64,000 nt of DNA from Natronosalvus amylolyticus (lineage in GTDB: Archaea > Halobacteriota > Halobacteria > Halobacteriales > Natrialbaceae): assembly GCF_024298845.1 (NCBI RefSeq), contig NZ_CP101156.1, forward strand, positions 2,976,001 to 3,040,000, written 5' to 3'. The notes beneath the pieces were generated by a model. That model saw only the letters and a program-made list of their open reading frames with translations, did no database searches and was not told the origin of the DNA. A program made the translations under genes and the position numbers. Below, in pieces: positions 28,896 through 36,748 of the stretch; within the stretch, counting starts at the first letter, position 1; every line of letters begins with the position of its first letter.

Positions 28896-30269
28896 ATGGA
28901 TGCGAGGGAGCACCGAGCGCTCCTCTGTGCGCTCGTCGTGCTCGGGTGCTGCATTACAGGATTTCCATCGCTTGTGACGGCCGACGGAAGTACCACTGGT
29001 GCCGGTACGACCCCATTCGAGCCGACCGAACAAGCGGTGGAATCGGTCACCGTGAGCGGGCCGTCCGTCATTGTGCTCAACGAGACCGATGACGGCCTCG
29101 AGGACGGAAACGAGACGACGACTGACAACGAAAGTACGGAGAACGAGACGGACTCGAGTGACAACGATACCGTTACTGATGGGAACGTCAGTACTGACGA
29201 GGAGTCGACGGCGAACGAGAGCCAGCGCATCGGGCCGACGCCAAAAGGGTACGACGAACTCGTCGTCAGCGTCGACGTTCGAGAGAACGGTTCGGCTACC
29301 TGGAGTCTCGAGTATCGCTATCGGCTTGACGAGGACAACAACGCGAGCGACCGCTGGGAAGATGCCCGCGAGGAGATCGAATCGGACCCTGACGGCTATC
29401 TCGAGATTTTCGAATCGAACTGGTCGGATCGTGTCGATGCGGCGGCCGAGTCCACGGGCCGTGAGATGGGTGCGAGCGACTTCCGTCTCGAGATCGACGA
29501 GGAGTCGACACCACAGGAAACGGGCTACATCCGGTTTAGTTTCCAGTGGGAGGAGTTTGCGAGAGTCGAACTCAACCGGATCGAAGTCGGTGATTCGTTC
29601 GGTGCGTTCGCTCTGGACGACCGGATGCAACTGATCGTCACCTGGCCGGAGGCCTACGAGCATCGGACGATCGAACCGGAACCCGACGATAGCCGAGACC
29701 GGGCGGCCATCTGGAACGGCGAGGCAACGGACTTTCTCGAGGGGGAGCCGTTCATCGAACTGATGGAGCGAACTGCAGGGGAGGCCGAGAGCGAATCGGA
29801 ACCAGACTCACTCGTCCCTGTTTCGTGGCTGGTGGGCTTGCTCTTGCTCGTGATGGTGCTTGCTGGTACACTCGGCTGGTGGGTGTTCCGCCCGGAGACA
29901 GAACGGGCGCATCAGACGGATGCGAGTGCGTCGACACCGCCTGTCACCGGTCCTCAGCGACCACCCGAAGAGCTGTTGAGCAACGAAGAGCGGGTGTTGA
30001 AACTGCTCGCCGAAGAGGGCGGCCGGATGAAACAACAGGAAGTTGTTTCGACGCTCGAGTGGACCGAGGCGAAGACCAGTCAGGTCGTCGGTAGGCTACG
30101 CGAGGACGGATCGATCGACGCGTTTCGAATCGGTCGCGAGAACGTGCTGACGCTGACGGAAACGGGTGAGGCAGCGGTGCCGGGCAGCGAATCCGGTCCG
30201 ACGGATGCGACTCCCTACGAATCAACGCCCTCGAGCGAACGTGGCTCTGACACTGATGAAGGGAACTAG
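28896..30269 (+). CDS. Membrane-anchored protein with exported domain and cytoplasmic winged helix
   Basis: 457 residues. A hydrophobic signal/anchor (about 8-28) leads to an exported Thr/Asn/Glu-rich linker with many N-x-T/S sites, then a beta-rich domain (about 120-290; ELVVSVDVRENGSATWSLEY, IRFSFQWEEFARVEL). One membrane segment (about 305-331) follows. The cytoplasmic part holds a MarR-like winged helix (about 365-430; RVLKLLAEEGGRMKQQEVV, VGRLREDGSID). The layout suggests sensing outside and DNA binding inside by one chain. Similar haloarchaeal proteins exist without known function. Confidence 0.8.
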   Translation: MDAREHRALLCALVVLGCCITGFPSLVTADGSTTGAGTTPFEPTEQAVESVTVSGPSVIVLNETDDGLEDGNETTTDNESTENETDSSDNDTVTDGNVSTDEESTANESQRIGPTPKGYDELVVSVDVRENGSATWSLEYRYRLDEDNNASDRWEDAREEIESDPDGYLEIFESNWSDRVDAAAESTGREMGASDFRLEIDEESTPQETGYIRFSFQWEEFARVELNRIEVGDSFGAFALDDRMQLIVTWPEAYEHRTIEPEPDDSRDRAAIWNGEATDFLEGEPFIELMERTAGEAESESEPDSLVPVSWLVGLLLLVMVLAGTLGWWVFRPETERAHQTDASASTPPVTGPQRPPEELLSNEERVLKLLAEEGGRMKQQEVVSTLEWTEAKTSQVVGRLREDGSIDAFRIGRENVLTLTETGEAAVPGSESGPTDATPYESTPSSERGSDTDEGN

Positions 30270-30493: not shown

Positions 30494-30503
30494 CCTTTAA
30501 TAG
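30494..30503 (+). promoter_or_regulatory. TATA box of the Arg-rich mini-ORF transcript
   Basis: CCTTTAATAG is centred about 29 nt upstream of the ATG at 30528. This is the distance expected for a leaderless or near-leaderless transcript, and it makes expression of the mini-ORF plausible. Confidence 0.5.
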
Positions 30504-30527
30504 TCGCAAAACGTTACGATTGTGTAG

Positions 30528-30614
30528 ATGACCCGTTTCGCTGCCTCCGCGCTCGCTCTCGCTGGACGCAGCGACGCCTCCGTTCGACCGCGGCGACCAC
30601 GGCCGGGCCGCTAG
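30528..30614 (+). CDS. 28-codon Arg-rich leader peptide candidate upstream of argG
   Basis: ATG to TAG encodes 28 residues with seven arginines, five of them within the last nine codons (RPRRPRPGR). It has its own TATA box at the correct distance and ends 147 nt before argG. Two mutually exclusive GC hairpins overlap its last codons and stop. A T-run follows at about 30671-30676, before the argG promoter. This is the layout of a leader peptide sensing charged tRNA(Arg), but no such system is established for haloarchaeal arginine genes. It could also be an unrelated small protein or chance. Confidence 0.4.
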   Translation: MTRFAASALALAGRSDASVRPRRPRPGR

Positions 30615-30618
30615 GCCC
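30590..30618 (+). other. Alternative hairpins over the mini-ORF stop codon
   Basis: GCGGC (30590-30594) can pair with GCCGC (30607-30611). GGGCC (30605-30609) can pair with GGCCC (30614-30618) around a GCTA loop. The two stems share bases and cannot coexist. The TAG stop at 30612-30614 sits in the second hairpin. GC-rich DNA makes such pairs often, so function is only suggested. Confidence 0.4.
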
Positions 30619-30704
30619 ACTCTTACTTCATCCCCTGACCCCAGTATATTGCAACTTTGCAGGAAACCCTGTTTTTCCCGGTTAGCGTCCGCCACGCACC
30701 TAAA

Positions 30705-30732
30705 TTACAAAAACTAAACCAATGAATTTAAG
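30705..30732 (+). promoter_or_regulatory. argG promoter: TTACAAAAACT box plus TATA (TTTAAG)
   Basis: TTACAAAAACT (30705-30715) precedes TTTAAG (30727-30732), which lies 30-35 nt before the argG ATG. Nearly the same pair in the same order and spacing occurs upstream of argW (33647-33672). The upstream box would overlap the factor-B recognition region, a usual place for archaeal operators. Confidence 0.55.
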
Positions 30733-30761
30733 TCCGTACTCCCGCTTTCCTCGAGTACCAC

Positions 30762-31994
30762 ATGACACGCGTTGCACTTGCGTTCTCGGGCGGACTGGAC
30801 ACGACGATTTGTGTGCCGCTGCTCGAGGAAGAGTACGGATACGACGACGTCATCGGCGTCACCGTCGACGTTGGCCAGCCGGCCAGCGAGTTCGACGAAG
30901 CCGAAGAAACAGCTGAAGCCCTCGGTCTCGAACACTACGTCGTCGACGCGCGAGCGGAATTCGCTCAACTCTGTCTCGACGGCGTTCGCGCGAACGCGAC
31001 CTATCAGGGGTATCCGCTCGGGACGGCGCTCGCACGTCCGATCATCGCCTCGAAGATTCTCGAGGTTGCACAGGAACACGACTGTACGGGCGTCGCACAC
31101 GGTTGTACCGGCAAAGGAAACGACCAGTTGCGTTTCGAGGCAATCTGGCGTGATTCGGATCTCGAGGTCATCGCGCCGATCCGTGAACTCGGGCTCACCC
31201 GCGACTGGGAAAAGGAGTACGCTGCAGAGAAGAACCTGCCCGTCCAGGGCGGGAACGAAGGTGACTGGTCCATCGACACGAACATCTGGTCGCGCGCGGT
31301 GGAAGGGAACGAACTAGAGGACCCGGCCTACGTCCCCGGCGAGGAGATTTACGAGTGGACGTCGGCACCAACCGGCGATAGCGAGACGATCGAAATCGAG
31401 TTCGAAAACGGCTACCCGGTCGCCCTCGATGGCGAGGAACTCGACCCCGTGACGCTCATCGAGACGCTCAACGAGCAAGCCGGAGCCTACGGCGTCGGGC
31501 GCTCCGACGTGATGGAAGACCGCATGCTCGGACTCAAAGTTCGTGAGAACTACGAGCACCCCGCCGCGACGACGCTGCTCAACGCTCACGAAGCGCTCGA
31601 GGCGCTCGTTCTAACGCAGGAAGAACGTTCGTTCAAGGCCCAGGTCGACCAGCAGTGGTCACAGAAAGCCTACGAGGGGCTCATCGACGCGCCGCTCGTG
31701 GACGCTCTCGAGGGCTTCATCGCCGAAACGCAAAAACGCGTGACGGGAACCGTCACGATCCGCTTCGAGGGTGGGCAGGCACGCGCGGTCGGGCGTGACA
31801 GCGCCTACGCGGCCTACTCCGCTGCGGCAGCCTCTTTCGACACCGAATCCGTCGGCGATATCGCCCAGGAGGACGCAACGGGCGTCGCGAAGTATCACGG
31901 CTTCCAGCGTCGCCTGGCGAAAAAGGCGGCCAAAGCGGCCGAGGAAGACCAGCAGGTCGAACTCGCCACTGACGGCGGGGCAAGCGAGGAATAA
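30762..31994 (+). CDS. argG: Argininosuccinate synthase
   Basis: A 410-residue ATP-dependent ligase joining citrulline and aspartate. The N-type ATP-pyrophosphatase P-loop is ALAFSGGLDTTI at the N-terminus. HGCTGKGNDQLRFE and the substrate segment WSIDTNIWSRA are family signatures. It leads the arginine cluster and is followed by argH after 2 nt. A short acidic/Gly tail ends the protein. Confidence 0.97.
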   Translation: MTRVALAFSGGLDTTICVPLLEEEYGYDDVIGVTVDVGQPASEFDEAEETAEALGLEHYVVDARAEFAQLCLDGVRANATYQGYPLGTALARPIIASKILEVAQEHDCTGVAHGCTGKGNDQLRFEAIWRDSDLEVIAPIRELGLTRDWEKEYAAEKNLPVQGGNEGDWSIDTNIWSRAVEGNELEDPAYVPGEEIYEWTSAPTGDSETIEIEFENGYPVALDGEELDPVTLIETLNEQAGAYGVGRSDVMEDRMLGLKVRENYEHPAATTLLNAHEALEALVLTQEERSFKAQVDQQWSQKAYEGLIDAPLVDALEGFIAETQKRVTGTVTIRFEGGQARAVGRDSAYAAYSAAAASFDTESVGDIAQEDATGVAKYHGFQRRLAKKAAKAAEEDQQVELATDGGASEE

Positions 31995-31996
31995 CC

Positions 31997-33499
31997 ATGT
32001 CCGAGGAATCCAGCGACAGTGTCGTCCGCCGCGACCGCTTCAGCGGCGGCCCCGCTCGAGGGTTCCTCTCCTCGCTCGCGGCCGACGAACGGATTTTCGA
32101 GGCCGACCTCGCGGTCGACCGCGCACACGTCGTGATGCTCGCCGAGTGTGACGTCATCGACGACGAGACGGCAGGCGACATCCTGAGCGCGCTCGACGCC
32201 ATCGAAGTCGAGGGCCACGGGAACCTGCCCGATGGCGAAGACGTCCACGAGGCTATCGAAACGGCCGTCATCGAGACGGTTGGGCCCGACGGCGGAAGGA
32301 TGCACACTGCTCGCTCTCGCAACGACGAGGTGGCGACGTGTATCCGCTATCGCCTTCGCGAAGACGTCCTCGCGACCCTCGAGGCAACGCTCACGCTTCG
32401 AGAAACGTTGGCTGACGTAGCCGCCGAACACACCGAGACGACGATGCCCGGGTACACCCACCTGCAGCCGGCCCAGCCGGTGACGGTCGGTCACTGGGCG
32501 CTCTCGTACGAACAGGCGGTTCGCCGCGACACCGAACGCCTGCTCGAAGCGTACGATCGGATTAACGTCTCGCCGCTCGGTGCGGCGGCGTTCGGCGGGA
32601 CGACCTTCGACATCAACCGCGAACGTACGGCGGCGTTGCTCGGGTTCGACGGCGGTGTCGCGAGTCGGACGAGTGACACCTCGTCGGGGCTTCGCTCCGA
32701 TGGTGTCCTCGAGAACTCGATGGACGCCGCCTCGAGCCGTGATTTCCTGCTCGAGACCGTGCAGGCGCTGTCGACGCTCGCGACGACGCTTTCCGGGCTG
32801 GCTGAGGATGTGATACTCTTCGCGAACCGCGGCTTCGTCGTCCTCTCGGACGACTATTCGTCGACGTCGTCGATCATGCCTCAGAAGAAAAATCCGGACA
32901 CGCTCGAACTCGTCCGCGCGGTCGCGGGCGATGCGGCCGGCGGAGTCCAGGGGCTGACGACGACGCTCAAGGGACTGCCACGGGCGTACAACCGCGACTT
33001 ACAGCGTGCGACGCCACACGCGTGGTCGACCGTCGACGCCGTCCTCGAGGCGACGAACGTTGCGGCGGGTGCAGTCGGGACGGCCGACTGGAACGAGGCG
33101 GCGCTGGCCGCGGAAGCCGGCGCTGGCTTTTCGACGGCGACGGGCGTTGCCGACCTGCTCGCAGCGAACGGCGTCCCGTTCCGTACCGCACACGAACTCG
33201 TCGCGCTCGCGGCTGAACGCGGCGGGGACGCCGCAGCAATCGAGGCGGCCGCCGGCGAGGTGCTCGCAGAACCGCTCGACGCGTACGTCGACGGCGAGAC
33301 GCTCGAGACGGCACTCGATCCCGACCACAGCGTCGCGAGTCGTGATTCCGTTGGCGGGCCCGCCCCCGAGGCGGTTCACGCCCAGATCGAGTCGGCCGCG
33401 GCCGCCCTCGAGGCGGATACCGACGCCGTCGACGAACGGGTATCGGGCCTCGAGGCCGCTCACGACGCGCTCCGTACGGCGGTGATGGCGTATGTGTGA
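31997..33499 (+). CDS. argH: Argininosuccinate lyase
   Basis: A 500-residue member of the fumarase/aspartase superfamily, releasing arginine and fumarate. The signature GSSIMPQKKNP appears here as STSSIMPQKKNPD (about 290). The conserved TARSRNDEV (HTARSRNDE) and PGYTHLQPAQP segments are present. Two nucleotides separate it from argG, implying cotranscription. The protein is slightly long because of Ala/Glu-rich C-terminal helices. Confidence 0.97.
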   Translation: MSEESSDSVVRRDRFSGGPARGFLSSLAADERIFEADLAVDRAHVVMLAECDVIDDETAGDILSALDAIEVEGHGNLPDGEDVHEAIETAVIETVGPDGGRMHTARSRNDEVATCIRYRLREDVLATLEATLTLRETLADVAAEHTETTMPGYTHLQPAQPVTVGHWALSYEQAVRRDTERLLEAYDRINVSPLGAAAFGGTTFDINRERTAALLGFDGGVASRTSDTSSGLRSDGVLENSMDAASSRDFLLETVQALSTLATTLSGLAEDVILFANRGFVVLSDDYSSTSSIMPQKKNPDTLELVRAVAGDAAGGVQGLTTTLKGLPRAYNRDLQRATPHAWSTVDAVLEATNVAAGAVGTADWNEAALAAEAGAGFSTATGVADLLAANGVPFRTAHELVALAAERGGDAAAIEAAAGEVLAEPLDAYVDGETLETALDPDHSVASRDSVGGPAPEAVHAQIESAAAALEADTDAVDERVSGLEAAHDALRTAVMAYV

Positions 33500-33646
33500 A
33501 CCGCGTCGGAAACCGCCGCGGATGCGGCCGCGACGACGGCCGCCGTCCCCCGCCGGGGACAAACTACCTATTCGATGATACTCGAAAACGAAAACGCGGC
33601 CTGAAGCATTTTAACTCCGTTAGAGGCAACCATAGGATACTTAATT

Positions 33647-33672
33647 TTACAAACACTTTCGAAGGGTTTAAG
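33647..33672 (+). promoter_or_regulatory. argW promoter: TTACAAACACT box plus TATA (TTTAAG)
   Basis: TTACAAACACT (33647-33657) precedes TTTAAG (33667-33672), 28-33 nt before the argW ATG. The pair mirrors the argG promoter. The argW-F operon therefore has its own start point in addition to any read-through from argGH. Confidence 0.55.
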
Positions 33673-33699
33673 GGCTATCGCCGCCGATGATGGAGTACA

Positions 33700-33864
33700 A
33701 TGACCCAATGCGTTGAGTGCGGGGCGGACCTGACCCTGCACGCCGATCTGGAAGTGGGAGAGATCGTGGACTGTACGACCTGTGGAGCCGAGCTGGAAGT
33801 AATCGATGTCGAGCCGCCAGTCCTCGAGAAAGCCCCCGAGCTTGAAGAGGACTGGGGTGAGTGA
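33700..33864 (+). CDS. argW: Amino-group carrier protein ArgW/LysW
   Basis: A 54-residue acidic carrier protein. The zinc-binding pairs CVEC and CTTC and the C-terminal EDWGE are diagnostic. The gamma-carboxyl/amino group of the terminal Glu is where glutamate is attached, so that the following enzymes work on a protein-bound intermediate. Its stop overlaps the GTG start of argX (GTGA). In haloarchaea, which make lysine by another route, this set is expected to serve arginine. Confidence 0.95.
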   Translation: MTQCVECGADLTLHADLEVGEIVDCTTCGAELEVIDVEPPVLEKAPELEEDWGE

Positions 33865-34748
33865 CCTTGAAAGTAGGAATCCTCTACTCGCGAATCCGCC
33901 GGGACGAGAAGCTCCTGTTGAACGAACTTCGCGAGCGCGGCCACGAGGTCGAAAAGATCGACGTCCGCAAGCAGGCGTTCGATATCCAGGAAGCTGGCGA
34001 GGCGTTCGACGACCTCGATCTGGTCATCGACCGCTGTCTCGCCACGAGTCGTAGCCTGTACGCGACGCGCTTCTGTGAAGCCTACGACATCCCCGTCGTC
34101 AACAGCAACGAAACGGCGGAGGTGTGTGCGGACAAAGTCAAAAACAGCCTCGCACTCGAGGCTGCTGGCGTTCCCACACCTGCGACGAAGGTTGCGTTTA
34201 CCAAAGAGAGCGCCCTCGAGGCTATCGAATCGTTCGGCTACCCCTGCGTGTTGAAACCCGTCGTGGGTTCGTGGGGGCGACTGATGGCCAAAATCGACTC
34301 GAAAAGCGCTGCCGAGGCTATTCTCGAACACAAGGCCACGCTCGGTCACTACGAGCACAAGGTGTTCTACGTCCAGGAGTTCGTCGACAAACCTGGCCGC
34401 GACATGCGCGTGCTGGCTGTCGACGGCGAGCCCATCGCGGCGATGGCGCGCTCTTCGGAGCACTGGCTGACCAACGCGGCGAAAGGTGCGGAGACCGAAC
34501 CGTTCGAACTGGACGACGAGGCGCTCGACCTTGTCGAGAAAGCGAGCGACGCCGTCGGCGGCGGCCTGCTCGGCGTCGACCTCATGGAGACCGGTGATTC
34601 CTATACGGTCCACGAGGTCAACCACACCGTCGAGTTCAAGGCGCTCAACGACGCGGTCGACATCGACGTTCCCGGTGCCGTCGTCGACTGGCTCGAGGAG
34701 AAAGCGGCCGCGGAAGCCGACACCCCGTCGATGGAGGTGCGTGCCTGA
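33861..34748 (+). CDS. argX: Glutamate-ArgW ligase (LysX-type ATP-grasp)
   Basis: A 295-residue ATP-grasp ligase that joins glutamate to the C-terminal Glu of ArgW. KVGILYSRIRRDEKLLL at the start, PCVLKPVVGSWGRL and the metal site segment EVNHTVEFK are recognisable. GTG at 33861 is used since it overlaps the argW stop and gives the full N-terminal strand. It is followed by argC with a 1-nt overlap. Confidence 0.94.
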   Translation: MTLKVGILYSRIRRDEKLLLNELRERGHEVEKIDVRKQAFDIQEAGEAFDDLDLVIDRCLATSRSLYATRFCEAYDIPVVNSNETAEVCADKVKNSLALEAAGVPTPATKVAFTKESALEAIESFGYPCVLKPVVGSWGRLMAKIDSKSAAEAILEHKATLGHYEHKVFYVQEFVDKPGRDMRVLAVDGEPIAAMARSSEHWLTNAAKGAETEPFELDDEALDLVEKASDAVGGGLLGVDLMETGDSYTVHEVNHTVEFKALNDAVDIDVPGAVVDWLEEKAAAEADTPSMEVRA

Positions 34749-35830
34749 TGGCAACGGAAGCGGCCGGTTCGTCTGTTGATGCCACCGGGAACGAGACGGT
34801 CACGGCATCCGTCGTCGGCGGCACCGGCTTCACCGGTGGTGAACTCCTGCGATTGCTCGACGGACACCCCAATTTTGCGATTCAACAGGCGACCAGCCGT
34901 TCGGCTGCGGGCAAGAGCGTCGGCTCGAAACATCCACCGCTTCGGGGCAGCGACCTGCGATTTAGCGAACCCGGCGACCTCGAGAGCGTCGACGTCCTCT
35001 TTACGGCGACGCCACACGGCGTCTCGATGGACCAGATCGACCACTTCTTCGAGGTCGCAGACACCGTCGTCGACCTCTCGGCTGACTTTCGTCTCGAGAC
35101 CGAAACACAGTACGACGAGTGGTACGACGGCCACAGCGCGCCCGAGTACCTCGAGCGTGCGGAGTACGCACTTCCCGAAATTAACCGTGAGAACCTGCCG
35201 GGCGCGGACCTGATCGCCGGCGGGGGCTGTAACGCTACGGCGACCATCCTCGGCCTTTACCCGCTGTTCGAACACGGGATCCTCGATGGGGGAGAGCAAA
35301 TCGTCGTCGACGTGAAAGTCGGCTCCTCCGAAGGCGGGGCCGGCGGCGGCGAAGCCTCGAGCCACCCTGAACGCTCTGGCATCGTACGCCCGTACGCGCC
35401 GACGGGGCACCGCCACGAGGCCGAAATCGAGCAGTTTCTGGGCACTTCGGTCGCGTTCACCTGCCACGCCGTGGATATGATTCGTGGGGCCAGCGCGACG
35501 GCCCACGTGTTCCCTTCGGGCCCGGTTTCGAAGGGCGACCTCTGGCAGGCCTACCGGGGGTGTTACGAGGACGAACCGTTCGTCCGCATGGCCGCCGGCG
35601 GGTCGGGCGTCTACCGCTACCCCGAACCGAAAGCGGTTGCCGGGACGAACTACGGCGACGTCGGGTTCGAACTCGACCCCTCGAACAAGCGGATCGTCGT
35701 CTTCTCGGCCATCGACAACATGATGAAAGGCTCGGCTGGACAGGCCGTCCACGCCGCGAACATCGCACTCGGCCTCGAGGAAACGGCCGGCCTCGAGTTT
35801 ACGGGACTTCATCCCGTGGGGGCGCCGTAG
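34748..35830 (+). CDS. argC: ArgW-bound glutamyl-phosphate reductase (ArgC/LysY)
   Basis: A 360-residue NADPH-dependent semialdehyde dehydrogenase. The dinucleotide loop is VVGGTGFTGGELLR. The catalytic cysteine is Cys161 (GGGCNATA). HRHEAEIEQFL carries the conserved His region. It acts on the phosphorylated carrier-bound substrate made by ArgB. The start ATG overlaps the argX stop by one base. Confidence 0.95.
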   Translation: MATEAAGSSVDATGNETVTASVVGGTGFTGGELLRLLDGHPNFAIQQATSRSAAGKSVGSKHPPLRGSDLRFSEPGDLESVDVLFTATPHGVSMDQIDHFFEVADTVVDLSADFRLETETQYDEWYDGHSAPEYLERAEYALPEINRENLPGADLIAGGGCNATATILGLYPLFEHGILDGGEQIVVDVKVGSSEGGAGGGEASSHPERSGIVRPYAPTGHRHEAEIEQFLGTSVAFTCHAVDMIRGASATAHVFPSGPVSKGDLWQAYRGCYEDEPFVRMAAGGSGVYRYPEPKAVAGTNYGDVGFELDPSNKRIVVFSAIDNMMKGSAGQAVHAANIALGLEETAGLEFTGLHPVGAP

Positions 35831-36748
35831 ATGGCGACGAACTCGTCTCCCGAAAGCGAGACGGTCGTCGTCAAAATCGGCGGCGCTCGCGCCGTCGACC
35901 CGGCCGGTGCGCTGGCTGACGTGGCTGCCCTCGTCGAAGCGGGCACGAACGTCGTCGTCGTTCACGGGGGCTCGACCGCCGTCGACGAGACGCTCGAGGA
36001 ACTGGGCGAGGAACCCACCTACGTGGAGACTCCCGGCGGCGTCGTCGGGCGGTTCACCGACGAGCGAACGATGGACGTGTTCAAGATGGTGATGCCCGGG
36101 AAGCTCAACACCGACCTGGTCGAGGCCCTTCAGAACGAGGGCGTCGACGCCGTTGGACTCTCTGGCGTCGACGGCCAGTTGCTCGCGGGCAAGCGCAAAT
36201 CCGCCGTCCGCGTCAAAGAAGACGGCAAAAAGAAGATCAAACGCGGCGACCACTCGGGTACCATCGACGAGGTCAACGCCGACCTGCTCGAGACGCTGTT
36301 TTCGGGCGGGTACGTGCCTGTTGTGGGCGGTCCCGTCCTCGGGGCCGAAAAGGGCGGTGGCTACACAGCCGTCAACGCCGACGCTGACCGCACTGCCGCG
36401 GCCGTCGCAGGGGCACTCGAGGCCGACCTCGTGCTCCTGACTGACGTCTCGGGCATCTATGCCGACCCAGACGACGAGTCGACGAAGATCGACGAAGCGA
36501 CGACCGAAGCGGCACTCGAGGCCGTCGAAGACGCCGCTGAAGGGTTCATGACGAAGAAAGTCATGGCCGCGAAAGAAGCACTCGAAACGGGGGCCACGAG
36601 CGTCGTTGTTGGCGATGCGAACGCCGACGGACCGGTCACGAGCGCACTCGCGGGCGACGGGACGACGATGACCCCCGGCGCGTTGGGCCTCGAGGGAGCA
36701 TCGGTTGCGGAGGACGCGGTCGCACCCACTGGAGGTGATTCCACGTGA
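35831..36748 (+). CDS. argB: ArgW-bound glutamate kinase (ArgB/LysZ)
   Basis: A 305-residue amino-acid kinase. VVVKIGGARA at the N-terminus, VVVHGGSTAVDE and the ATP-site LLTDVSGIYADPDD are typical. It phosphorylates the carrier-bound glutamate. It begins at the base after the argC stop, and its own stop overlaps argD. A Gly/Ala/Thr-rich tail of ~35 residues extends beyond the usual family end. Confidence 0.95.
   Translation: MATNSSPESETVVVKIGGARAVDPAGALADVAALVEAGTNVVVVHGGSTAVDETLEELGEEPTYVETPGGVVGRFTDERTMDVFKMVMPGKLNTDLVEALQNEGVDAVGLSGVDGQLLAGKRKSAVRVKEDGKKKIKRGDHSGTIDEVNADLLETLFSGGYVPVVGGPVLGAEKGGGYTAVNADADRTAAAVAGALEADLVLLTDVSGIYADPDDESTKIDEATTEAALEAVEDAAEGFMTKKVMAAKEALETGATSVVVGDANADGPVTSALAGDGTTMTPGALGLEGASVAEDAVAPTGGDST

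Follow-up and report, generated by a model that had tools for sequence, protein, structure and literature searches.

In this study, we propose that the arginine operon in the window (the whole stretch of 64,000 nucleotides analysed here) is probably controlled by a cis-acting leader-peptide attenuator: a ribosome that stalls on Arg codons would mask a hairpin around the stop codon of a leader mini-ORF. By comparison of related sequences, the ORF, its frame, the Arg cluster, the hairpin and the spacing are conserved throughout the class, and an Ile/Val twin precedes ilvB. The broader reading is plausible, and we stop short of calling it probable: the Halobacteria would possess a class of leaderless, pathway-matched attenuators operating by direct masking, the stop hairpin otherwise leading to FttA-type termination in a G-free tract. 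An earlier note on this DNA had suggested an arginine-tied leader-peptide or stalling device. The conserved frame, the spacing between Arg cluster and hairpin, the conserved leaderless promoter and the Ile/Val version at ilvB strongly support this idea, but not the competing hairpins that it invoked.

The argG leader and its reading frame

The elements of the leader and of the adjoining arg cluster are arranged in the window as follows.

30496..30502, + strand: TATA element TTTAATA of the leader promoter P1 (from the sequence)
30528..30614, + strand: leader mini-ORF upstream of argG, 28 codons, MTRFAASALALAGRSDASVRPRRPRPGR and stop
30585..30602, + strand: Arg control codons CGA, CGG, CGA, CGG (codons 20, 22, 23, 25) with Pro between (from the sequence)
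30605..30618, + strand: stop-codon hairpin GGGCC-GCTA-GGCCC, arms 30605-30609 and 30614-30618 (predicted fold, compensatory changes)
30619..30636, + strand: G-free C/U/A tract, 18 nt directly 3' of the stop-codon hairpin
30659..30676, + strand: weak 5-bp hairpin GCAGG/CCTGT (30659-30672) plus TTTTT (30672-30676); no fold excess over shuffles, z -0.4
30680..30686, + strand: GGTTAGC, start of a conserved element 5' of the argG promoter (from alignment)
30727..30732, + strand: TATA element TTTAAG of a separate argG promoter, P2 (from the sequence)
30762..31994, + strand: argG, argininosuccinate synthase, first gene of the arg cluster (NCBIfam NF010392, E 1e-194; TIGR00032, E 8e-132)
31997..36748, + strand: argH, argX/lysX, argC and argB (TIGR00838, TIGR02144, TIGR01850 and NF010661, above cut-offs)

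As described before, the 28-codon ORF (30528-30614) carries seven Arg, five of them within the last nine codons, and a T-run precedes the argG promoter (five T at 30672-30676, argG TATA at 30727-30732). The TATA box placed 29 nt before the ATG is present too, but its first T lies 32 nt 5' of the leader ATG and the figure of 29 fits approximately the box centre. In most relatives the spacing from TATA to ATG is 29-34 nt, and the P1 transcript is predicted to begin at the ATG or adjoining it, i.e., to be leaderless. On the 5' side of the leader lies an ORF (window 28896-30269) for an acidic protein of 457 amino acids, apparently with a membrane segment and with a part resembling a helix-turn-helix at its C-terminus; NCBIfam gave no family match for it at E 1e-10.

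Upstream regions of argG were gathered from related genomes and named contigs, giving 155 distinct regions that span many families and retain little residual DNA similarity here; since the sequences are related, they do not represent independent events. Nearly all 155 regions, and nearly all sampled genera of Halobacteria, contain a leaderless mini-ORF whose Arg residues cluster at the C-terminus. Several apparent exceptions (L131, L140, L144, L044) are explained by a GTG start, and L103, from genome G046, is the only region clearly without a leader. In G046 both the arg and the ilv leader (L103, L203) are missing, and its lineage within the sampled order may mark either the origin or the loss of the leader system. 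An ORF preceded by a TATA element and containing at least three Arg in nine residues is present in 97% of the first 89 real argG upstream regions versus 0.6% of shuffled ones. Shuffles, the control with the other frames and the conservation together rule out a chance ORF; the mini-ORF is real.

The reading frame itself was examined in 127 cases by picking the ATG on promoter proximity alone, with no frame criterion. The promoter-proximal frame is open and stops within the hairpin in 124 of them; the two alternative frames do so in 9 of 254 cases. The earlier note had made its idea depend on conservation of the frame upstream of argG in relatives; the frame is kept and the idea survived. All three exceptions (L057, L065, L066) belong to Natronorubrum, where the Arg cluster is retained and the frame passes the hairpin stop. 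More generally, in Natronorubrum and some relatives (the same three, L021 and L030) the frame is shifted at the hairpin and the stop lies well downstream, and these leaders provide a natural test of the importance of the hairpin stop. Divergence at codon positions 1, 2 and 3 is 0.10, 0.18 and 0.25 in the last 11 leader codons and flat in the N-terminal ones (0.26, 0.23 and 0.26), indicating that the frame and the control codons are under selection and the remaining peptide is not. When a conserved arrest-peptide sequence was sought in the leaders, only Arg and the hairpin-encoded Gly recurred.

Arg residues in the last 12 codons number 4.9 on average (range 2 to 11, 124 leaders) and peak class-wide at codons -4 to -7 counted from the stop. 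All 124 leaders have their final pre-hairpin Arg codon starting within 5 nt of the 5' arm; given the size of its footprint, a ribosome reading this codon in the A site must also cover that arm. Among the Arg codons in the last 12 positions, 89% are CGA or CGG, as opposed to 9% in argG of the same group. The idea that these are globally rare codons is wrong: across 974 long ORFs of this genome they account for 49% of all Arg codons. Their use in the leader may partly reflect RNA pairing.

The stop-codon hairpin and two promoter layouts

The TAG (30612-30614) sits in the loop and 3' arm of the hairpin, and folding of 30595-30640 is predicted to yield the GGGCC/GGCCC stem (-11.5 kcal/mol). A rule-based search recovers the hairpin in 139 of the 155 regions, with co-varying arms among relatives (GGGCC/GGCCC, GGCCC/GGGCC, GGGGTC/GACCCC, CGGGCTC/GAGCCCG, GGGGC/GCCCC). 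All 37 gap-free rows are paired, with a covariation score matched by none of 500 shuffles and a single column pair that varies; an arm-swap test is weak because the same arms are common to most species. On these comparative grounds the stop-codon hairpin is taken to be real. Downstream of it, G accounts for 1-2% of the positions +6 to +20 past the leader stop (84 relatives), and C content exceeds U content in the tract. A comparison with Rfam gave no match near any gathering score for the leader region.

Two mutually exclusive GC stems had been described at the end of the ORF, of which only the stop-codon stem held up. Stems of at least five GC pairs that compete for its 5' arm are rarer than expected (18% observed, 38% shuffled), the window's own competitor scores 3 in this count of GC pairs, and such stems are not conserved; a two-stem switch is thus unsupported and was rejected. 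The leader anatomy suits direct masking of the hairpin by the ribosome.

Two layouts can be distinguished downstream of the leader. Type A regions (106 of 155, including the window) have a TATA-like element 20-40 nt before argG, and type B regions (49 of 155) have none there. In 44 of the 47 type B genomes with a detected hairpin, no TATA-like site occurs anywhere between leader and argG, so that the leader apparently resides on the argG mRNA; argG starts 64-193 nt past the hairpin, after A/C-rich, G/T-poor sequence. In type A, argG has its own promoter and P1 therefore need not matter for its expression. The weak hairpin with TTTTT in the window has A/T-rich palindromic counterparts in many, not all, type A relatives. 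It could be a terminator of the type A P1 transcript or part of a DNA operator. Nearby, a conserved GGTTAGC...GCTCTACC-like element precedes the argG promoter in the window (30680-30700) and in the matching type A region, and some other families have a TATAGGCATCTC-like element; both are possibly transcription-factor sites.

In type B genomes, pairing between the Arg segment and RNA downstream of it is somewhat stronger than in shuffled sequence (mean z -1.6). Universal pairing of this kind was rejected and judged lineage-specific, as type A is no better than swapped partners and type B moderately better. The extra structures of type B, i.e., pairing between Arg codons and downstream RNA and alternative helices before argG, include none that all lineages have in common; only the stop hairpin is common across lineages. 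Some type B leaders (L110, L145, L161, L082, L089) show a second hairpin with a GTCGGGT-type loop, which might pair with an ACCCGAC-type segment just 5' of argG as a possible alternative structure.

The ilvB counterpart, the proposed mechanism and its rivals

The same design, consisting of mini-ORF, stop-codon hairpin and G-poor tail, recurs before ilvB in 27 of 30 loci of the class, in most cases behind a suitably spaced TATA-like site. Here the C-terminal clusters are composed of Ile and Val, sometimes Leu (e.g., SLIIVGAA, PIIVGV, SIRIVGAL), and the hairpin on the stop is of the GGGGC-nnn-TAG-CCCC type. ATT accounts for 33 of 45 Ile codons versus 21% genome-wide and GTA for 34 of 58 Val codons versus 7% genome-wide, although part of the GTA preference may derive from pairing in the hairpin stem. 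Several ilvB starts carry a GGAGG-like motif. In this genome the ilvB leader (L204) is located at G000:C1:931336, between leuA and ilvB; further examples are L205-L223 and L226-L232. That the amino acid matches the pathway in each of two unrelated operons argues most strongly for the codons as the sensor.

A scan with strict criteria for the complete design, covering both strands of 2.06 Mb of this genome, returned the argG leader, the ilvB leader and one doubtful A/T-rich match. The scan recovers 28 of 30 argG loci and 15 of 30 ilvB loci, so further leaders may be missed. Applied to trpC, hisG and trpD loci it found no leader, and at leuA loci only the neighbouring ilvB leaders. The genes pheS and trpS of this genome (G000:C1 2015940-2020722) have Haloferax homologues with uORFs in their mapped 5' UTRs (PMC4983044), and by analogy they may be preceded by Phe or Trp leaders.

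We propose the following course of events. Transcription from P1 would yield a leaderless mRNA whose first codon opens the 28-codon leader, and a ribosome would translate it close behind the polymerase. With charged tRNA(Arg) in plentiful supply, the ribosome would reach the stop and depart; the GC hairpin around the stop would then form, the G-free tract would become exposed and the polymerase would be halted ahead of argG. With arginyl-tRNA scarce, the ribosome would stall on the Arg codons; with 0-5 nt between the last of them and the hairpin's 5' arm, it would mask this arm, preventing the hairpin and permitting transcription into argG. In the lineage of the window, P2 would supply additional argG mRNA, either unattenuated or under separate regulation. 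From this arrangement we infer translation of the leader, stalling, sensing of charged tRNA and the direction of control, and also that the regulated step is termination and not the translation of argG.

How termination would come about is more conjectural. Terminators in Haloferax include T stretches, and in one in vivo reporter assay a hairpin halted 59% of transcripts (PMC7237163). In the leaders no long U-run directly follows the stop hairpin, and an intrinsic terminator of the bacterial type is thus not evident. The factor FttA prefers U-rich RNA, and its exclusion by a coupled ribosome has been put forward as a hypothesis (PMC11616081); as the tract contains more C than U, the role we assign to FttA is a guess.

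The main rival concerns the controlled step and supposes a shared mRNA. Leader and stalling would be the same, and the translation of downstream argG or ilvB would be regulated as by a uORF of the fungal arg-2/CPA1 type: the 5'-terminal AUG would capture ribosomes, and the stall or stop site would decide whether argG or ilvB is reached. Such control would suit type B, where argG follows 64-193 nt past the hairpin on apparently one mRNA with A/C-rich, G/T-poor sequence between, where lineage-specific structures precede argG, and it would suit the GGAGG-like motif at several ilvB starts. It leaves type A unexplained, however, where argG has its own near-leaderless promoter, and the stop hairpin is the only structure that the lineages share. 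We consider translational control unlikely.

Much less likely still is an arrest peptide that senses free arginine, rather than charged tRNA, through the nascent chain at its C-terminus or stop codon, in the manner of fungal AAP or bacterial TnaC. The conserved part of the leader is indeed its C-terminal Arg/Pro/Gly segment (RPRPGL/R) adjoining the stop, but no residue beyond Arg and the hairpin-encoded Gly is conserved, leaders differ, from 2 to 11, in how many of their last 12 codons specify Arg, the Natronorubrum frame passes the hairpin stop, and the ilvB leaders have a different C-terminus in the same design.

The two weakest alternatives are both highly improbable. A small Arg-rich protein acting in trans, whose place before argG would be incidental or merely co-regulated, would account for the conserved frame with its own promoter, yet the N-terminal codons lack amino-acid constraint, the ORF stands beside argG all through a sample that was itself gathered by way of argG, the hairpin extends over the stop and the ilvB counterpart carries matching amino acids. 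A conserved RNA structure or DNA operator with an untranslated ORF, the Arg codons being a by-product of a GC-rich repeat (CGACGACG), agrees with the observation that CGA/CGG runs in several type B genomes pair with RNA further downstream, but not with the frames that end in the hairpin (124/127 versus 9/254 for other frames), the third-position excess of divergence in the control codons, the conserved spacing of the leaderless start, or the AT-rich ATT and GTA codons that ilvB uses instead.

Relation to known systems

In the openly licensed literature searched, leader-peptide attenuation is described only in bacteria, and according to a paper from 2021 neither attenuation nor antitermination was known in archaea (PMC8448881). 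A survey of transcription start sites in Haloferax volcanii from 2016 reported 16 uORFs in 5' UTRs of 150-250 nt; argG and ilvB are not among them, which speaks against our proposal, although all 16 had low isoelectric points. Two of these uORFs precede trpS and pheS, and the survey suggested neither a regulatory role nor a match to amino acids (PMC4983044). On the strength of the comparisons presented here, archaea probably use this type of control as well. If true, direct-masking leaders with FttA-type termination would represent the first case of transcription attenuation among the Archaea. From a class-wide pair of pathway-matched leaders it would follow that archaea, with their eukaryote-like polymerase and a different termination factor, also put the coupling of transcription and translation to use in amino-acid control. 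The leaders also offer a ready test of the competition between FttA and the ribosome, for which Haloferax and Haloarcula provide mature genetics.

Actinobacterial ilvB leaders, including the Corynebacterium ilvB-II motif, resemble the haloarchaeal ones in that an ORF rich in branched-chain amino acids precedes ilvB and the control codons overlap the hairpin; their hairpins run into poly-U, whereas those of haloarchaea do not (PMC10272879, PMC1262725). A leader survey of the Actinobacteria listed no comparable arginine leader (PMC1262725). With bacterial attenuators in general (trp, his, ilv, leu, thr), the argG leader shares a short ORF rich in codons for the end product, placed before a biosynthetic operon and overlapping with hairpins. 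It differs by its archaeal host, its leaderless 5'-terminal AUG and the position of the hairpin around the leader stop, and in having neither a direct U-run nor a conserved antiterminator stem. Among the features by which leader attenuators are recognized, the enrichment in pathway codons, the frame under selection and a hairpin within reach of a ribosome on the control codons are all borne out. For a terminator between leader and structural gene, the window offers the five T behind the weak hairpin; a U-run is not universal, and the signals for termination in archaea are different. A mutually exclusive antiterminator stem was not found, competing stems being depleted compared to shuffles. Since such a stem belongs to the classical trp-type subset and is unneeded for direct masking, we assign the leader to the attenuators only in the sense that it would work like one.

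A study by Canestrari from 2020, cited in PMC9031893, reportedly described leaderless polycysteine short ORFs in mycobacteria that act as attenuators of the downstream operon. These share with the argG leader the leaderless short ORF and a run of codons for one amino acid, and differ in being bacterial and in using cysteine. The arginine attenuator peptide of fungi, encoded by the uORF of arg-2/CPA1, is a conserved peptide that stalls the ribosome at its own stop upon free arginine. The likeness lies in an arginine-responsive uORF of an arginine-synthesis gene, as proposed here for argG; in the haloarchaeal leader, by contrast, it is the codons and not the peptide that are conserved.
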